In this document: one piece after another, positions 1,310-64,000 of the stretch
Numbering within the stretch: position 1 is the stretch's first letter
How the letters are laid out: each line of letters begins with the position of its first letter
DNA from: Typhlomys cinereus
Lineage: Eukaryota > Chordata > Mammalia > Rodentia > Platacanthomyidae
Length of the DNA: 64,000 nt
NCBI GenBank assembly: GCA_023101885.1
Contig: JALPQD010000006.1
Span: 13,935,585 to 13,999,584, forward strand
Direction of reading: 5' to 3'
The notes under the pieces: model-generated
The model's database searches: none
Told to the model about the DNA's origin: nothing
Seen by the model: the letters and a program-made list of their open reading frames with translations, nothing else
Position numbers and translations under genes: made by a program

Positions 1310-1660
1310 CATTGTTAGGTATAATGGGTTCGAGTTCTGGACACATTTGTAGATAATTAGTAGTTGAGTTAAACTCAGAGTGAACCTGCAGGAGATTGTC
1401 TAATTGGTGGGGAAGGCCCAACCCATGGTGGGTAGAATTTGACTCTGGACTTGTGAATAAAATACATAGAGCTGACTGGAGAAGTTGGCATCCTCATGTT
1501 TACTTGTCTGTACATGCTGGTCTGGCAAATAAGGATTGTTCCTCTCTCAGCTGTTATATGGCTATGATGTGGTCCATTCCCTCTACCCTGTGAAGACGGT
1601 GCATGCATGAGCTCCTGCCAAGGTGGACTAAGAACTGTAACCAGACAATCATAAGATTGT
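1310..1660 (+). mobile_element. MaLR/ERVL-like rodent LTR, 5' part, split by an L1 insertion
   Basis: It matches, with gaps, the LTR-like repeats at 19300-19740 and 55205-55560: a 'tgcaggagattgtct' block, then 'ggaaggcccaacccatggtgggt' type sequence, then an 'aactgtaaccagacaa' segment. This pattern resembles rodent ORR1/MT-type MaLR LTRs, though I cannot fix the subfamily. The rest of the LTR lies on the other side of the L1 at 6361-6395, so the LTR predates that L1. Confidence 0.55.
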
Positions 1661-4600
1661 CTGCTGCCTGCAGGAAATTCATCTCACCACAAAAGATAGG
1701 CACATGCTAAAAATAAAAGGCTGGTCAAAAATTCTGCAAGCTAATGGAATTAGAAAACAGGGAGGGGTAGCCATTATACTCTCAGACAAAGTGGACTTCA
1801 AACCAAAAAAAAATCATGAGATACAGATGGATACTACATTTTAGTCACAGGTACAATTCACCAGGAAGACTTCACAATACTGAACATATATGCACCCAAT
1901 ACGGGCCCCCCCTACATTCATTAAGCAAACCCTACAATGTCTAAAGTGAGAAATCAATCACAAAATGATAATTCTTGGGGATTTCAACACTGCCCTCTCA
2001 ACATGGGATAGATCAACAGGTAAAAAAACTTAACAGAGATACTTTGGAGCTTAATCAAACCCTTACTGAAATGGATCTTACAGATCTTTATCAAACTTTT
2101 CACCCACGCACCAAAGAATACACATGTTTCTCAGCAGCACACAGAACTTTCTCCAAAATAGATCACATATTGGGCCACAAATCGAATCTCCACATATAAA
2201 TAGCCTGTACCATATTAGACAACCACGGCCTAAAGCTTGACATCCACAACACAACAAGCAACAGAAAATACACTAACTCCTGGAAACTTAACATTATGAT
2301 GCTGAATGAGAATTGGATTCAGGAAGAAATTACAAAGGAAATTCAAGATTTCCTGAAAGTGAACGATAATGAAAATACAACTTACCAAATATCTGGGACA
2401 CAATGAAAGCTGTCCTAAGAGGTAAGTTCATAGCTCTTAATGCCTACATCAAAAAAATGGAAACATAGAAATAAATAACTTAACAATGCAGCTTAAAGCT
2501 TGAGAGACGCTAGAGCAATCTGATCCCAAAAGCAGTAGAAGGGAGGAGATTAGCAAAGTAAGGGGAGAAATATCTGAAATCGAGATTAGGAAAACGATAC
2601 AGAAAATCAACCAGTCAAAAAGCTGTTTTTTTGAAAAAAATAAGATTGAAATACTCCTAGCTAAATTAACCAAAAGCAAGAGAGAGAAGGCCCAAATTAA
2701 CAAAATTAGAAATGAAATGGAGTTATCGCTACTGACACCCAAGAAATCCAGAGAATTATAACGTCGTATTTCAAAAACTTATACTATGTCAAATTTGACA
2801 ACACAAAAGAGATGGATGAATTCCTAAGTAAACACAACTTACCTAAATTGAATCAGGAAATTGTGAATTATTTAAATAGTCCTATTACATATGAGGAAAT
2901 TGAGGAAGTAATCTTGAACCTTCCCACCAAAAAATGTCCTGGACTAGATGGATTCAGCACAGAGTTCTACCAGAGCTAATAACACCAATACTCCTTAAAC
3001 TGTCCCATCAAATAGCAAAGGAAGGAACACTACCAAATTTCTTCTATGAAGCTAATATCGTCTTAATCCCAAAACCTAATAAAGATACACTTAAAAAAGA
3101 AAACTCCAGGCCAATCTCTCTGATGAACACAGATGCAAAGATTCTCAACAAAGTCTTAGCAAATCAAATTCAAAAACATATCAAAAAGTTCATCCACAGG
3201 GATCAAGTAGGCCTTATCCCAGGCACACAAGGTTGGTTCACATATGCAAATCAATAAATGTAATTCACTATATAAACCAGTTAGTTCAAAGTTCAAGACC
3301 ACATGATACTCTCGATAGATGCAGAAAAAGCTTTTGACAAGATCCAACACCCCTTTATGATTAAAACCTTAGAGAAGGTTGGAATGGAAGGAAACTTTGT
3401 CAATATAATAAAAGCTGTATACAACAAGCCAACAGCAAGGATTATAGTTAATGAGGAAAAACTGGAAGCATTCCCACTTCAATCAGGAACTAGACAAGGC
3501 TGTCCACTCTCACCACTTCTATTCGATATTGTACTTGAAGTCTTAACTGAAGCCGTAAGACAAGAAAGGGTCATAAAAGGGATTCCAATTGGCAAGGAAG
3601 AGGTCAAGTTATCCCTATTTGCAGATGACATGATCATATACCTGAGTGATCACAAAAACTCCACCAGGAAGCTCATGGAACTAACGTTCAGCAGGGTGAC
3701 AGGATACAAAATAAATGTACAAAAATCAGAGGCCTTCCTATATGCCCAGAATGAAAGAAGTGAAAAAGCCTTGAGAAACAATCCCATTTACTATATAGCC
3801 CCTAAAAAAGTTAAGTACCTTGGTATAAACCTAACCGAGGAAGTAAGAGACCCTTATAACGAAAATTTTAAAACCCTAAAGAAAGAAATTACAGAAGACA
3901 CCAGAAGGTGAAAGGCCTCCCATGTTCCTGGATTGGCATAATCAACATCATAAAATTGACCATCCTACCAAAGGCAATATACAGATTCAATGCTATACCA
4001 ATTAAAATCCCAAAGCAATTCTTTAAAGAAGTTGACCAAACAATCTCAAAATTCATATGGAGGCACAAAAGACTCAGGATAGTAAAGACAATCCTGAGTA
4101 ACAAAAACACTGCTGGAGGTATCACCATACCAAACTTTAGTCTATACTACAAATCCATAGTTGTAAAAATAGCCTGGTATTGGCTCCAAAATAGACACAC
4201 AGATCAATGGATAAGGGTTGAAGACCCAGATATAAGCCCACACAACTACAGCCATTTGATCTTTGACAAAGGGGTCCAAAAAATCCAATGGAAAAAGAAC
4301 AGCATCTTCAACAAATGGTGCTGGCAAAACTGGATATCCACATGCAGAAGATTAAAACTGGACCCGTACTTGTATTCATATACAAGAATTAATTCCAAAT
4401 GGATCAAGGACCTCGATATAAGGCCAAAGACTATAAAAACCTTAGTTGAAAGGGTAGGGAACTCTCTTGAGCTGATTGGGTTAGGCCAACAGTTCCTAAA
4501 CGGACATCCAATAGCACAGTCACTACAACCAACACTCAACAGATGGGTACTTATGAAATTAAAGAGATTCTGTTCAGATAAAGAGGTTGTAACTCGAGTA

Positions 4601-5341
4601 CAAAGACAACCCACAGAATGGGAGAAAAATCTTCACTAACCACATATCTGATAGAGCTTTACTATCCAGAGTGCACAAAGAACTTAGAAAACTAAATACC
4701 AAGGAAACAAATGGCCCAATTAAAAAATGGACCTGGGAACTTAAAAGAAACTTTACCAAGGGCGAAAATAAAATGTCTAACAAATATCTTAAAAAATGCT
4801 CCACATCCTTAGTCATCAGGGAAATGCAAATCAAAACTTCACTGAGATATCATCTCACCCCCAGTCAGGATGGCAAAAATCCACAATACAAACAACACCA
4901 AGTGCTGGAGAGGACGTGGAGAGAGTGTTACTCTCCTACATTGCTGGTAGAAATGCAGGCTCATACAACCACTCAGGCGAGCTGTCTGGCGATTCTTAAA
5001 GAAATTAAAAATTGAAATGCCATATGACCCTGCTATACCACTTATGAGAATAACCCCCCCATACAGCAAAATTTCACCTCGATAGCACAAACACGACTAT
5101 GTTCATAGCAGCACTATTTACAATAGCAAAGTCATAGAATCAACTCAAATGTCCAACAGTTGATGAGTGGATAAGGAAAATGTGGTATATTTATACAATG
5201 GAATACTATTCAGCCATTAAAAATGATGAATTAATGCAATTTGCTAGGAAATGGATGGAATTAGAAACAATTATATTGAGTGAAGCATTCCAGACATGGA
5301 AAATTAAGTGCTGTATGTACTCCCTAATAGGTGGATGCTAG
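1660..5341 (+). pseudogene. L1 ORF2 relic, copy A (endonuclease, reverse transcriptase, C-terminal domain)
   Basis: ORF2 encodes the endonuclease and reverse transcriptase that nick the target and copy L1 RNA into it. Here the endonuclease part (about 1660-2500) is broken by frameshifts and stops. The reverse transcriptase part survives as open stretches at 2934-3257, 3303-3911 and 3908-4639. Visible motifs are RPISLMN near 3110, the catalytic FADD at 3618-3629, and the QGCPLSP block near 3500. The C-terminal domain lies at 4671-5341 and ends with a TAG at 5339-5341. Codons that look like former Arg or Gln are stops in places, as expected from CpG decay. No N-terminal half of the endonuclease or ORF1 is present because of the 5' truncation, so this cannot encode an active protein. 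Confidence 0.9.
2418..2427 (+). other. Consensus-like splice donor inside L1 ORF2 of copy A
   Basis: The sequence AGAGGTAAGT fits the mammalian 5' splice site (AG|GTAAGT), with the exon ending at 2421. It lies in codons for the AVLRGKF stretch of ORF2. The spliced L1 copy at 37.7-38.6 kb joins at exactly this point. In the copy at 59-64 kb the same place reads AGAGATAAGT, so the GT is lost. Whether the site is used in copy A itself is not shown. Confidence 0.75.
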
Positions 5342-6345
5342 TATCAAACCCACTTAGAGACACTCAAAGACAAATCTCTGTAATACCTACAGTAATTGTA
5401 AAGATTATAAACAGGAGGGATGGGGAAGGAGGGCCCCACCAGAAACAAGGAGAGAGGGGACCATGTTACAGCAGAGAAAATAGGCCACCATCAAGGACTG
5501 AGTAATGAGACATCTGGTTAAGTTCACAGACTTTCCTTCCTGATCATTTGCAACTGAGGGGGTATGATCTCACCAGAAGGGGAGGGCATATGGGCTGCCA
5601 GATAGAAAGTAACCATTTTGCAAATGAGTGATTGACCCCTCTCTCACCGCGGTCTCCTACTTTTATTCCATCTGTCTTTGAATATACTCTTATAACAAGA
5701 CTCTAATTTAACAGGTTTTTATTTCTGGCCAGGGGGTGACATCCAGTACCCATCAGGATGGAGTCAACGGCATTGGAGGAGCAACAAAACTGAAAAAAAA
5801 AATCAACTAACCATAATTCAGAACATCAGAGACTATATCAACCACCTGGAACTGGGTGAGCCTAATCTCTCCCCATCCTGAAGCTCAGGGAAATTTGCGG
5901 AAGAGGGGGTGGTAAGATTGTAAGAGCGCAAGGATGGAGGAGTAATGATATGCAAGATACTCCACACAAGTTAGGGCCGAAGCAATCATAATAGGACTTT
6001 GCATGACCTGCACTATGTCCAACACATTATTGACCCCACAAAGTCTAGCATGGACTAAAGGCACTAGAATCCTTGGAGGCTAGGGACTGATAGTCATAGT
6101 TAGTCATAGTAGTGTTCCTAAGCTTAAGAGGAACACAAGAAAGGGTTCTGGGAAATGCCCCTGGGTCCTAGCACCTCATTGGAGAGGATGACCCAGAGGA
6201 GATTTTGTATGCACACTAAAGGATGCTCCGATGATGGGGGGGGCACTAGAAGATGGGGAGGGAGGGGGGAAAGGAGGGGGAGTGGGGGTTCAGAAAGATG
6301 TAGAGGGAGGGAGGGGACTGGTGTATGTTAAGTTTGTATGAGTGG
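5342..6345 (+). other. L1 3' UTR, copy A
   Basis: Shared with the L1 tails at 22, 29, 38, 44 and 59 kb. It contains the splice acceptor at 5715-5733, a conserved middle block (about 5880-6200) and a purine-rich G-run tract at 6233-6320 that could form a G-quadruplex. It ends with 'gtatgagtgg' followed by an A tail. Confidence 0.85.
5715..5733 (+). other. Consensus-like splice acceptor in the L1 3' UTR of copy A
   Basis: A pyrimidine-rich run (tttttatttctggcc) leads to CAG|G, with the exon starting at 5733. The pyrimidine run is conserved in the other unspliced L1 tails (about 29675-29697, 44344-44364 and, on the minus strand, 59866-59890). The spliced copy at 37.7-38.6 kb resumes at this point. 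Confidence 0.75.
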
Positions 6346-6360
6346 AAAAAAAAAGATTGT

Positions 6361-9040: not shown

Positions 9041-10469
9041 GGAATGTCCTCTAAGAAAGAAAAATAAAAAGTCCATAAACCATAAGCCTGGTGAAAAGGG
9101 AGATTTTCTACAGATGCTGGGATCATTCATTATGGAAAAGTAGAAGAATGTAAACTATGTGCTTTTTCAAATGAATACAAATAGCCAAATAGAAGAGAGA
9201 AAGAAATTCAGTCCAAAGAAAAGAAGAAGGAAGGATGAATAATGATTTGGGAGAGAGCATGATGCTGGTGGGATGTATGTCAGAAAAGAGAGTGTCATCT
9301 CTATAGAACTGCATGCATGCTGGAAACCGTAGTTATGATACTGATGGTCAAGAAAATGACACCACAGTGACTTCCAAGGCAGGTCAATGTGCAACATATT
9401 GCTGTTTCCCACAGTTTCACTGATCAGGGTCCATGTATGGCAGTAGCAGTCACATCTTAGAACTGTTATGAGAAACCAAGATTTGGGAACAGCAGGAAGT
9501 ACAAAAGTTTCTAAATAACCATATGTTATCTCAATAAAAATCAACTATGCGTAACATCTGCTGTGATGATTGCCAATTTATTTCACATGTATTTGCCTGA
9601 GATTGTTGTTTTACTCTCTTGGGACATACTCAAGCACATTCTTATTACTTTGATCTGAAGTATTCTTTCCTGTTTTTGATATTTTCTAGAATTAGGAATA
9701 ATTCTGGGTTCTTCATATGTCATGTACTTTCATCCACAGTTGACTTTTTTGTTTAATCTTCAGTTTAGCTGATTCTATTGGTCCCTTCTCTCCATTTGCA
9801 AGGCATGTTAGGAAGACACCTTTCAGGGATATAAAATAGGGCAGTGGTTCTATAAGTAGGAAAAAGCACGGTGACTCCTGCTTTTCACTATCTATGCAAA
9901 TTTACAGAGCTGAACTTGCTCATATTTTCAAGGAGAATGGTTAAAAATAACGTGTCTAAATTTTGTTTTATTCTATCTAGACAATTATTATTCAAGCTGC
10001 AAAACAGTGCTGACAGCATTTATGACATGGAGACGACCAGGCTGCTGAATTAGTCTGACTTTTCAGGCTTATCTTGTGTTCTACCTTTCATGACCTATTC
10101 ACTGCCCCAAATACAACTCTGAACCCTAAAAACCCTTGTAAGCTCTCTCATTATTTTAATGTGCTTTGGATATACATAATGAAATGTCTGATTTTCCTCT
10201 TTCCTTTTCTATTGAATTAGCACTAATTGGCAGCCATTGCAGAGCAGTAGGTTCTGTCTGCCCTGAAGCCTCTAATCCTCTCCAATTCTAGACTCTCAGC
10301 ACAGAGCCATCTTACCTGACAGATAGGCATGGGACCATCTTCTTGGGACAGCTTCCTGTTTGTGATACTTTCTAAAGACTACATAACTATGTAATACAAA
10401 TGTGGTGGCTTTCAAAGCAAAAACTTGAGATCTTCATTCTGGAGACTAGAATTGCAAAATCAAAGAGTA
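9041..10469. other. Unassigned sequence
   Basis: No repeat recognised. The minus-strand frame at 9167-9544 (125 codons) has no recognisable domain and looks like chance. Confidence 0.4.
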
Positions 10470-21928: not shown

Positions 21929-22602
21929 AAGATTTCTCCTGGCTTAGGAGGTGACATACAATGCCTATCAAGATGGAGTGAAGGGCATTGCAGGAACAGC
22001 AAAACTGCAAAAGAAAATCAACAAACCACAATCTAGAACTTCAGAGACTCTATATCAACCACATAGAACTAGGCCAGCCTAATCTCTCCCCATCCTGAAG
22101 CTCAGGGACATTTGCGGAAGAGGGGGAGGTAAGATTGTAAGAGCACAAGGATGGGAGGAGTAATGATATGCAAGATTCTCCACACAAGTTAGGGCCAAAG
22201 CAATCATAATAGGACTTTGCATGCCCTGCGCAATGCCCAACACACTATTGACCCCACAAAGTCTAGCATTTGCTAAAGGCACCAAGATCCTTGGAGGCAA
22301 GGGATTGACAGCCACAGTAGTGTTCCTATGCTTAAGGGGAACACAGAAAAGGGTTCAGGGAAATGCCACTGGGTCCTTGTACATCATTGGAGAGGAGGGC
22401 CCAGAGGAGAGCCTGGCATGTACATTAAAAGATTCTCCGGGGATGGGGCGGTAGGCACTGGGGGATAGGCAGGGAGGGGTGAGGGGAGGGGGAGCAGAGG
22501 GGTAGGGGGGAGGAGGAGGGAGGGAGGGAACCAGTGTACCTACCAAGTTTGTATGAGCAGAAATAATAAAAAATGTAAAAAAAAAAAGATTTCTCCTGGC
22601 TT
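21929..22602 (+). mobile_element. Young L1 3' UTR insertion with 17-bp target-site duplication
   Basis: The element proper is 21946-22585. It starts at 'aggaggtgacatac', runs through the conserved L1 3' UTR and the G-rich tract (22440-22535), and ends with a 'gaaataataaaaaatgt' A tail. The 17-bp duplication AAGATTTCTCCTGGCTT is at 21929-21945 and 22586-22602 with no mismatch, so the insertion is young. The 5' end lies within 2 nt of the splice acceptor position described for copy A (5731-5733). Confidence 0.95.
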
Positions 22603-25670: not shown

Positions 25671-28144
25671 ATTTACAGAAAACTAAGGGATATCTTGTGA
25701 GATCAGATATAAATTTCCAGTTTCTCTTTTGGGATGAATAGGCACAACCATTAACAATTTTATTTGTAAATGTCCTCACCCAGTGTTGTCCCACCTTTGT
25801 GTTCTGCACTACTTTTGTTCCATTGTTCCATTCATGGCTTCCCTGATTCTTGCTCTAGTGCTCTGATTATTTGGTGTTATCCTGAATGTTAATCAATGGG
25901 AACACAGCCTTTCAGTGTTGGCTGTTCACCACATGGTTTTCACCCAAGCTTTATTTGCTCCAAATGCTGGAGTATAAGACATCATAGCTGTCTTTCCAAT
26001 CCAAATGTTCTGAATTTGATGTTCTTTTTGTTGTGATGAATGCCTTCTTTTTTGGTGTACTATGTCAATCAAGGGAATTTTAATGCTCCTTCAGGAAAAA
26101 AACAGGCACACAATTGAAAAAGAAACCTAATCTCAGTGATTTCAGGAGATAACTAAATGGAAAAATTATACCAGCAAAATGTGCAGGTGTCCAGGCAATT
26201 GATGAACGAAAAAAAGATGGTAGAGGAAGGACTAAGGACCTATTCTTCATGCGATAAATTACCCCTCAGCACAGGCTGTACTTAGCACTTCACATGAAGG
26301 GATCACAATTATCTTCATAGCAAGGGATTGTGCAGTTTTGTCTGGGAACCACTCCCTTAACTGGAGATTTATAGGGATGGTGAATTGTTATTTATTACAG
26401 GACTCAAAGCCAAATTTCAGACCAGGTCTTTGAGTTGAGACAACAGAAATGTCATCCTCACAAAGGCCAGAAATCATTAAAAAATGCATGTTTTATATTC
26501 AGCCAGTAAACCAATAGGTAATCACTACCTATGTTCCCATAAAAAAGAGATAATACCCCCTTTATAAGCTATTACTGACATAAGACATCAGATTTTTCTA
26601 AATCGTACTTTCTAGAAACATCTGTACAATATAAACCATCCACAAAGAGCAATATAACTACCTAGCATTATAAAAATTTAATTTTGAAAACAACCACATA
26701 GCATAAAATCTAGACATAATGGAAGATACACTTTGCTCCACATATAAATACAAAAATAAGATTTTTTAAAGAACATTGCTAGATACATCTAGTCTAAGAT
26801 AAAGATTCACCAAAAAAAAAAAAAAAAAAGGAAAAAGAGCGTGGCGGTTGTATGACTGTTTCTGGGTTGGGCACGATTACTGACATCAGTATTAGAGAAC
26901 TATGAAATCCACATGAGGCCCTTTGAGAAAAGACCTGATAATATTCCCATTTTGGCGGGAGAAGGAAGGCTCACATGGTTCTACCTCTCCCAGAGGATAT
27001 GTCATGTCATACAATTGATATAGATGTAGTTGCCTGTAAGCTGTTCATGCTACTGTAAGTGACATCTCAATCGTGTTCCTATAAGCACTGCCCATAATTT
27101 CACTGGCTCAACAAGTTGGACTTGAGTGGAATCAATTCTTGGTATGTCATTATTCTTTTGAACCAGGTTTAATAGAAATGGACTCCTTGGGAAAAATAAC
27201 ACAACAAGGGCATGCATACAGAAATAATATTTTACCTGAAAAAAATGCTCAAGTCAATTACTGGTTAATGCCAAGGATCAATGAGCAACTTTTCAGATGG
27301 GATGAATTGGTTGCACTGGGCAGTACCTGATGAGGGAGCACCACTGGAACTGACCAGCTGAGTCCTAGTTCTTGCCATGGCTGAAAGTGCAGCTGAATCT
27401 ATTTAGTTTCTATCAGCATTCTTAGCTCTGCCCTAGTTAGGTTTCTATTATTAGACTGCAGAGTTATAAGGAACTCCAGGCCAGTCATTTCTAAGTTTGT
27501 TTCAAGACAAATGTTCTGCAGTGACCAACCTGCTTGGTGTTATCAAGGAGAGATAGCTTCTGAAAGGTCTTTCAAATCTAGTCAAATCAAAAATCTCTTA
27601 TGGGCTTCACCTTTAGTCTTTCAGTCAGATAAAGAGAACACAAAGACATTTCCTTTGCATGCCTATCAGCAGGCATCAAGCGCTCATGAGGAATTAAAAT
27701 GTAGCAGCTAAATACTTTTATTTTGCATTAAATGGGAAGTAGAAAATTTGTAAATTATCTGTGCGTCATCTAACTGAGCACTCACTTATCACAATGATTC
27801 CATCTGTGGCTGATCAAATGTCCATATCCAGGTTGTTACCAGATGGCTTTTAGACCTCTTCCTCAACAATCCTTTCAGTCATATGAGACCCAAATGCCAA
27901 GACTGAGTGGTTCCTAAGTTCTTAAAAACTTACATAGAATGCTGCACTAGTTTTTTTCTGATAACATTTCAGTTTCTGATTTTACCTGAAATTAAGCCAT
28001 CTGAGTGAAACGACTGCCATTTTTATAAGTGCATGTATAACAAATTCTAACACATGGCATGTACACACTAATTTATTGAGTGAATTGAAAAACGAGTATT
28101 AAATGTGTGTTTTCTGCAAACCAGAATAGAATGTACTTCTCAAT
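25671..28144. other. Unassigned sequence with an A-run at 26812-26829
   Basis: The A-run could be the tail of a retrocopy, but no homologous body or target duplication was seen next to it. Nothing else is supported. Confidence 0.4.
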
Positions 28145-28325
28145 TGTCTTTAAGGTTTTTAACTAATGAATTAATTAATATTTATCTACAGAGAGAGAGA
28201 GAGGGAGAGAGAGAGAGAATGGTATTCAGGTGGAGGTCAGTTCTCTACTACAGTGGTCTTCCAGGAGACGATTAGGTTTTAGGCAGGTGTTTTATCCACT
28301 GAGTAATCTCACCAGCCAGTCATTT
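28145..28325 (-). mobile_element. tRNA-derived SINE (B3-like) with GA tract
   Basis: A GA tract (28191-28219), 'ggaggtcagttctctactac', 'ggcaggtgttttatccactgagtaatctcaccagcc': the reverse of a B3-like SINE with the tRNA head near 28315. Confidence 0.7.
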
Positions 28326-37708: not shown

Positions 37709-38578
37709 CAGGAGTTGCAAATAAGAGAGCATTTTTTTATTAATTTATTTTTTTCACTCATATGAATGCTACCCCATTCCCCTCCTTCCCTCCACCCTTC
37801 CCTGGATCCCCTTGCTCCCTCCCCCCTTTTCCCCTTCCTTTCCCCCCCTCCCTTTCTCCCAGTCGGGGGGGCCCCCCATTCCTGGATCATCTTTTAGTGT
37901 GCATGTCAAATTTCTCTCTGAGTCCTCTTCTCTGATAAGGTGTAAGGACTCAGTAGCATTGCCTAAAGCTCTTTTTTGTGTTCCCCTTTAGTATAGGAAT
38001 ACTGTTGTAGCTATTAATCCCTTGCCTCTAAGGATCTTAGAGCCTGTGATCCATGCTAGACTTTGGGAGGGGGGTCAATGACATGTTGGTCATTGTGCAG
38101 GTCATGCAAAGTCCTATTATGATTACTTCGGCCCTAATGTGTGTGGAGTATCTTGCATATCGTTGCTCCTCCCCATCTTTAGGCTCTTACGATCTTACCG
38201 TCCCCCTCTTCCACAAATTTCCCTGAGCTTTGGGATGGGGAGATATTAGGTTGGCCTGGTTCCTGGTGATTAATGTAAGGTTTCTGATGTTCTAAATTAT
38301 GGTTTGTTATTCTTTTTTTTTCTTCTTCTTCTTCCAATTTTGCTGTTCCTGCACTACCCTTGGCTCCATCCTGAAGAGTATTGCATGTCACCTCCTCTTA
38401 GGACAGCTTTCATTGTGTCCCAAAGATTTTGATAAGATGTATTTGCATTATCGTTGGCTCCCAGGAAACCTTGAATTTCCTTTGTAATTTCTTCCTGAAT
38501 CCAATTCTCATTCAGCATCATAGTGTTTAGTTTCCAGGAGTTAGTGTATTTTCAGGAGTTGCAAGCAGGAGAGCATTT
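37709..38578 (-). mobile_element. Retrotransposed spliced L1 RNA (internal 3.3 kb missing), with target-site duplication
   Basis: The minus strand reads an ORF2 endonuclease-region segment of 158 nt (38552-38395) joined directly to the L1 3' UTR (38394-37735), the G-rich tract and a tail rich in A. The junction reads CTAAGAG|GAGGTGACAT. Copy A has CTAAGAG|GTAAGT at 2415-2427 and CAG|GGGGTGACAT at 5730-5742, so the missing part is bounded by a donor GT and an acceptor AG. The flanks at 37709-37734 and 38553-38578 are a 26-bp direct repeat with three mismatches, so both parts entered in a single insertion. The mismatches suggest moderate age. Confidence 0.88.
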
Positions 38579-63300: not shown

Positions 63301-64000
63301 TTTCCTTTTTAATTTCTTCCTGAATCCAGTTCTCATTCAGCATCATATTGTTAAGTTTCCAGGAGTTAGTGTATTTTCTCTTGTTTGTTGTGTTGTGGAT
63401 GTCCAGCTTTAGGCCGTGGTGGTCTGATAGGGCACAGGTTAGAATTTCAACATTTTTGTATATGTGTAGATTCGTTTTGTGGCCCAATATGTGATCTATT
63501 TTGGAGAAAGTTCCATGTGCTGCTGAGAAAAATGTGTATTCTTTGGTACGTGGGTGAAAAGTTCGATAGAGATCTGTAAGGTCCATTTCTTTAAGTGTTT
63601 AAGTTCCAAAGTGTCTCTGTTAAGCTTTTGACCTGTTGATCTACCCCATGTTGAGAGGGCGGTGTTGAAGTCCCCAAGAATTATCGTTTGGGGGTTGATT
63701 TCTTGCTTTAGTCGCTGTAGGGTTTTCTTAATGAATGTGGAAGGGCCCATATTGGGTGCATATATGTTCAGTATTGTGAAATCTTCCTGGTGAATTGTAC
63801 CTGTGACTAAAATGTAGCATCCATCCGTGTCTCTTATAATTTTCTTTGGTTTGAAGTCCACTTTGTCTGATAGCATAATGGCTACCCCTGCCTGTTTTCT
63901 GCTTCCATTTGCTTGTAGAATTGTTGACCAGCCTTTTATTTTTAGAGCGTGCCTATCTTTTGTGGTGAGATGGGTTTCCTGCAGGCAGCAGATTGATGGA
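60302..64000 (-). pseudogene. L1 ORF2 relic, copy B (endonuclease, reverse transcriptase, C-terminal domain)
   Basis: Reading right to left, the endonuclease region (64000 to about 63150) includes LSDKVDFKPKKI and TIHQEDFTILNIYAPN. The reverse transcriptase holds CPGPDGF (near 62700), RPISLMN (near 62520), QGCPLSP (near 62130) and the C-terminal [15 protein letters not shown] block, ending at 60302. Breaks: frameshifts near 63595, 63190 (A-run) and 62915; an in-frame TGA near 62622; an in-frame TGA near 61044; a one-base frameshift near 60780. The catalytic FADD reads FADN, codon AAC at 62019-62021 on the minus strand. The largest open piece is 489 codons (61044-62513). It could not make working reverse transcriptase. 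Confidence 0.92.

Follow-up and report, generated by a model that had tools for sequence, protein, structure and literature searches.

The window analyzed here is a stretch of 64,000 nucleotides from the rodent Typhlomys cinereus (assembly GCA_023101885.1, contig JALPQD010000006.1, positions 13,935,585 to 13,999,584), and it harbors on its minus strand a short copy of the retrotransposon LINE-1 (L1) whose 5' part, the last stretch of the ORF2 endonuclease region, continues directly into the L1 3' untranslated region (3'UTR). An earlier note on this DNA had attributed the unit to an L1 RNA that was spliced from ORF2 into the 3'UTR and then retrotransposed. Direct reading confirmed the boundaries given there to the base, together with the 26-bp flanking repeat with three mismatches and the donor and acceptor in copy A, an unspliced L1 in the same window (Table 1). 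In copy A, the sites matching the two sides of the junction are separated by 3311 nt, with GTAAGT after the left side and CAG before the right. Because the duplication flanks the whole unit, the ORF2 part and the 3'UTR part most likely entered in one insertion event. Within the window, the left part of the unit also matched positions 63378–63220 at 90.6% identity (blastn), and the right part matched six other L1 3'UTRs at 71.8–75.5%; in five of these six, the match set in at one shared base, which precedes the junction by two bases (AG). Both sides of the unit have AG at the break, which amounts to a 2-nt microhomology.

Table 1. Parts of the spliced unit and of the unspliced reference copy in the window (a slash marks a splice boundary)
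Feature	Position	Strand	Remark
Target-site duplication, 5' side (insertion on the minus strand)	38553..38578		26 bp, 3 mismatches to 37709–37734
Target-site duplication, 3' side	37709..37734		Pairs with 38553–38578
5'-truncated exon 1 from the final part of the ORF2 endonuclease region, last letters CTAAGAG	38395..38552	-	91.9% to copy A 2264–2422
Splice junction CTAAGAG/GAGGTGACAT	38394..38395	-	54 places in own genome, reversed control 0
Exon 2: L1 3'UTR, starting at GAGGTGACAT and reaching the A-rich tail	37735..38394	-	Identical start base in 20 loci and in copy A (5733)
Copy A: unspliced 5'-truncated L1, degraded ORF2 and 3'UTR, reference; ends approximate	1660..6354	+	Direct reading and blastn
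ORF2 donor GTAAGT in copy A	2422..2427	+	Donor pattern at 28,240 places, up to 3 mismatches
Acceptor CAG in copy A, TTTAACAGGTTTTTATTTCTGGC just before	5730..5732	+	Younger-type unspliced acceptor pattern at 9,365 places, up to 3 mismatches
GT at the 3'UTR-internal donor position, degenerate in copy A	5502..5503	+	CAA/GTAAGT or CAG/GTAAGT in other copies

We searched the species' own assembly (2,676,751,641 bases in 1,235 contigs) with patterns for the spliced junctions and their unspliced counterparts, allowing up to three mismatches; all counts are of sites, with duplicated loci included, and depend on the age range of each pattern. A genome search for further copies of the junction had been proposed in the earlier note, and a 27-nt pattern of the ORF2 junction was found at 54 places, with none for the reversed pattern. 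We read 51 of these places (30 with 1500-base flanks, 20 with only 30 nt of exon 2, and C334), and in all 51 the donor-side letters of ORF2, limited to 11–25 nt in 14 of them, were joined to the start of the 3'UTR exon; C5:10243550, C331:810399 and C370:1792561 lay outside this reading. The 30 loci fetched with long flanks had 29 different downstream flanks, the single exception being L057 and L058, which lie on different contigs and share 99% of their downstream flanks over 616 nt; the remaining flank matches were short repeats. This pair is a segmental or assembly duplication, and L058 was dropped from the counts as a duplicate of L057. Unspliced relatives likewise carry GT and AG at the boundary, so that both refuting conditions named in the earlier note, an absence of further copies and a source without GT or AG, are contradicted. 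The unspliced ORF2 donor pattern, GT included, occurred at 28,240 places, some of which may have lost the GT within three mismatches, and all 20 donor sites read, sampled from rows with no mismatch, had GTAAG. The unspliced acceptor of the GAGG type occurred at 9,365 places.

The same acceptor is used by more than one donor. From 15,871 first-look candidates of an insert search, 40 were scored, and six of these, the window copy included, span the ORF2 junction. We then took the upstream DNA of the next 20 copies by rank. Exon 2 aligned from one shared base in all 20 loci, preceded by four kinds of sequence: unspliced sequence resembling TTTTAACAGCCTTTTATCTCTGGCTAG in ten, the ORF2 donor side in five (L009, L010, L011, L012 and L014), a GC-rich exon of the 5' untranslated region (5'UTR) ending in CCCCAG or TTCCCAG in three (L013, L015 and L016), and 3'UTR sequence from further upstream, with TACTGCAA at its end, in two (L017 and L025). 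Because the sample was picked by likeness to the spliced query, these class shares are not rates. Judged by coordinates, the GC-rich class has six further members among the 40 scored candidates and the 3'UTR class has two. Three donors, located in a 5'UTR monomer, in ORF2 and at a site ~235 nt upstream within the 3'UTR, share one 3'UTR acceptor, and a GT was found at all three in unspliced relatives. Genome-wide, the 5'UTR junction, which removes the coding sequence, occurred at 255 places, and the 3'UTR-internal junction at 912 places with 18 upstream bases in the pattern or 1,027 with eight; both reversed patterns gave none. The unspliced 5'UTR donor pattern was found at 776 places (921 in a looser form, with some spliced rows among them) and the unspliced 3'UTR donor pattern at 28,061. 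The ORF2 donor is therefore the rarest of the three at this acceptor, and the other two had not been foreseen.

Insertion marks and sequence relationships were obtained chiefly for the ORF2 class. One copy, L012 (~3.2 kb), begins at TCCTTTCC.. and comprises the 5'UTR, a broken ORF1 region, the endonuclease region, the junction, the 3'UTR and the tail; it is a spliced copy that extends from a presumed start site to the tail and lies between the duplications GAAAAGTCAACTGTT and GAAATGTCAACTGTT. Target-site duplications were found for the window unit and L037 and, by eye, for L044, L012 and L016; in most of the remaining ORF2-class loci, none was clearly recognizable by a simple search. We computed an exon-2 tree of 50 sequences, including 30 ORF2-spliced, three 5'UTR-class and two 3'UTR-class rows; support was weak for 24 of its 47 inner branches, and the bootstrap had not converged. 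The ORF2-spliced rows required 11 changes on this tree, compared with a mean of 15.9 after shuffling, and none of 500 shuffles was as low; the class thus forms clusters without being a single group. Seven of its rows fell in one clade (support 92/81), and well-supported branches forced at least three changes. On a second tree, computed without L049 and w21948, the approximately unbiased (AU) test rejected a single clade for 29 ORF2-spliced rows (P = 1.07e-10).

Letters on the two sides of the junction were also compared. The types of exon 2 are GAGG, GGGG and GGAG. When the exon-1 letter at position –38 was C, exon 2 was GGGG in nine rows, GGGA in one and TGGG in one; when it was T, exon 2 was GAGG in 15, GGAG in three and GGGG in one; and four rows with A had mixed types. 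The other 15 of the 49 rows diverged too far from the consensus across 41 nt to be scored. The agreement of these letters, together with the AU rejection, indicates that splicing took place in several L1 subfamilies, and the ORF2-spliced copies have several origins.

The GC-rich exon of the 5'UTR class is a 5'UTR monomer. It is followed by GTAAAC in L020 and by a decayed ATAAGC at the same place in L022; in both, the GC-rich motif recurs 207–209 nt onward without a GT, and three pairs of listed donor sites are spaced 203–213 nt apart, in agreement with tandem monomers. We read 23 copies of this class (20 sampled from the listed matches with up to two mismatches, and L013, L015 and L016). Homology stopped 21–64 nt upstream of the junction, at 53–64 nt in 13 of the 23 and exactly at GCCCTTTCC in five. 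A shared transcription start would produce such a cluster of ends, and we infer a start there from the sequence. A variant, CACACTGCTCCTCAG/GAGG, appeared in 13 rows of the class among the matches listed and may represent a monomer subfamily or one multiplied spliced copy. A further monomer lies ~210 nt upstream of two spliced copies, at C3:8188215 (beside 8188436) and C7:4019381 (beside 4019172), and these copies could retain a promoter. Between 10812 and 153771, contig C1058 carries six monomer donor sites that are identical in sequence, ~25–30 kb apart and on both strands, like a large duplicated unit.

On this basis, we propose that L1 RNA of this lineage carries a working 3' splice site in its 3'UTR, TTTTAACAGCCTTTTATCTCTGGCTAG/GAGGTGACAT, with TTTTAAC as the presumed branch site. 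The spliceosome, as the likely agent, would join this acceptor to CCCCAG/GTAA in the 5'UTR monomer, to AAGAG/GTAAGT after the ORF2 endonuclease, or to TGCAA/GTAAGT ~235 nt upstream in the 3'UTR. On this model, the RNAs retain the L1 3' end after splicing and polyadenylation, and target-primed reverse transcription inserted them at new sites. Since the reverse transcriptase region is missing from the RNA spliced at the ORF2 donor, another L1 must provide it, and L1 proteins of intact elements would presumably act in trans for the two classes without reverse transcriptase. In L036, L043, L045 and the window copy, the reading frame stays open through the junction (KAVLRG/GD..), and a truncated ORF2 protein consisting of the endonuclease plus a short tail could thus be translated from such RNA. 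Plasmid expression of ORF2 proteins reduced to the endonuclease was found to damage DNA and to be toxic (PMC4176336). Elsewhere in the window, an L1 3'UTR copy at 21929–22602 (from 21946) starts AG/GAGG, at most 2 nt from the exon-2 start, with duplications AAGATTTCTCCTGGCTT on both sides; it is either an insertion whose complementary DNA stopped at the splice boundary or a coincidence.

The 5' ends of ORF2-class copies are unevenly distributed. By a gapped measure, 14 of 50 copies start 11–25 nt upstream of the junction (L029, L032, L037, L038, L039, L042, L044, L053, L057, L069, L071, L073, L074 and L078), one starts at 57 nt and 35 extend further, L030 and L040 doing so across an indel or insert; ends closer than ~10 nt are invisible to the search pattern. 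An earlier count by eye had placed 12 of 15 short ends inside 10 of 73 nt (binomial P = 1.3e-8, the interval picked post hoc). The duplications of L037 and L044 identify these two as true truncations. No ends lay within 58 nt of the donor in 20 unspliced copies. At the 5'UTR junction, at most one of 23 copies belongs to such a pile-up (L083, measured at 21 nt), and GCCTGGGAC-like letters just upstream make an internal deletion more likely there; a Fisher test took this class as 0/23. At the 3'UTR-internal junction, the figure is at most one of 31 perfect rows, judged by eye over –9 to –18 only, with 30 of the rows recurring in another listing. An exon junction complex would lie 20–24 nt upstream of each splice junction. 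A complex that halts reverse transcriptase would fit the distance, but the near-absence of a pile-up at the other two junctions disfavors a general block at exon junctions, and this explanation was not adopted. Exon junction complex proteins were observed in an RNase-sensitive fraction of L1 particles (PMC5821459).

Taken together, the window unit is very probably a retrotransposed, spliced L1 RNA, similar to the SpIRE copies of human L1 but with its acceptor in the 3'UTR. A junction common to many copies could also have spread from a single deletion that founded a non-autonomous family comparable to HAL1, and the clustering of ORF2-spliced rows, seven of them in one clade, agrees with such a founder. 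However, three different donors meet at one acceptor, unspliced copies have both GT and AG, the subfamily letters of exons 1 and 2 match up, and the exon-2 tree and the AU test reject the ORF2 class as one family; we consider a single founder highly improbable, and the splicing and retrotransposition proposed in the earlier note are supported. Template switching or random deletion during reverse transcription, occurring separately in each copy, might have exploited the microhomology at the break. Scattered breaks would then be expected, whereas the junction recurs at 54 places and two more donors, each at a GT, reach the same acceptor. In view of these shared junctions and three donors, with the AU test and the marker letters, we reject random deletion for the ORF2 class, and template switching is hardly credible.

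The 3'UTR class calls for a separate consideration that is compatible with splicing as the source of the unit. Its 912 places might derive mostly from an L1 subfamily that lost the 3'UTR intron once and was then amplified, with the other classes arising by recurrent splicing. The high count would fit this, as would recurrent variants such as GAGGAGAC among the matches listed, but GAGGAGAC is also present in ORF2-class L034 and L036 and in 5'UTR-class C2:9238978 and C212:2755913; occurring in all classes, the variant alone is no marker of an intron-less lineage. We regard this as possible, while leaning against it. Several observations weigh against the interpretation of the unit and its relatives as products of recurrent splicing. 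The unspliced locus L023 has GGCTAA where AG is expected, presumably through decay. The pile-up of truncations before the ORF2 junction does not follow from this interpretation. The junction counts represent sites and not independent events, as the duplicated L057/L058 locus illustrates. Finally, the tree holds just three 5'UTR-class and two 3'UTR-class rows, with independence shown for the ORF2 class alone, and with so few rows an intron-less subfamily could account for part of the 912.

Spliced copies of this kind preserve in the genome the frequency with which L1 RNA undergoes splicing in a lineage, and they make it possible to examine whether splicing holds L1 in check. The 5'UTR-to-3'UTR spliced copies occupy 255 places against 776 unspliced donor sites, which are site counts and not rates. 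They also represent a candidate route from L1 to non-autonomous elements without open reading frames (ORFs). More speculatively, and with considerable doubt, a built-in 3'UTR intron and alternative splicing might let one element yield three RNAs capable of retrotransposition, of which the first would be autonomous, the second would have only ORF1 and the endonuclease, and the third, ~0.7 kb long, would be ORF-less. ORF-less copies that keep a monomer might then be transcribed again, and splicing would be the birthplace of L1 parasites resembling short interspersed elements.

The retrotransposition of spliced L1 RNA is itself already known; what sets the present case apart is a 3'UTR acceptor with several donors. 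Belancio and colleagues reportedly described spliced human L1 RNAs and functional splice sites inside L1 RNA in 2006; such sites within L1 RNA are the shared feature. Our literature search found no L1 3'UTR acceptor common to several donors among the matches listed, which were titles and opening abstracts, mostly outside subscription papers and without Belancio 2006. Likewise, a 3'UTR acceptor with several donors was not found in the accessible portions of PMC5860796, PMC13174262, PMC5860798, PMC4859970, PMC2666806, PMC4176336 and PMC5821459.

Chimeras of LINE-1 with spliced host RNAs likewise show that L1 splice sites can leave retrotransposed products (PMC13174262); there, host exons are joined to L1, whereas both exons are L1 here. 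The closest counterpart is SpIRE in human L1 (Larson et al. 2018, PMC5860796), where GT/AG-spliced L1 RNA was also retrotransposed with recurrent junctions, giving products presumed unable to continue alone. Human spliced copies are described there as rare dead ends from one 5'UTR donor, with the acceptor in the 5'UTR or ORF1, whereas all three classes here use a 3'UTR acceptor. The features shared with SpIRE are a GT/AG-bounded gap in the unspliced parent, a junction present in independent insertions, and a target-site duplication with an A-rich tail. Unlike SpIRE, three donors serve one acceptor here, and the 5'UTR class has no coding sequence.

HAL1 (half-L1), reportedly described by Bao and Jurka in 2010, is said to be a family of its own with one self-propagating origin. 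It is derived from L1 and lacks reverse transcriptase (PMC4859970), as do the ORF2-spliced and 5'UTR-spliced copies here. The ORF2-class copy L012, the one followed as far as ORF1, has an ORF1 region, although a broken one; the 5'UTR class has no ORF1. In contrast to HAL1, the spliced copies here do not form one clade, as indicated by the AU test of 29 ORF2-spliced rows.
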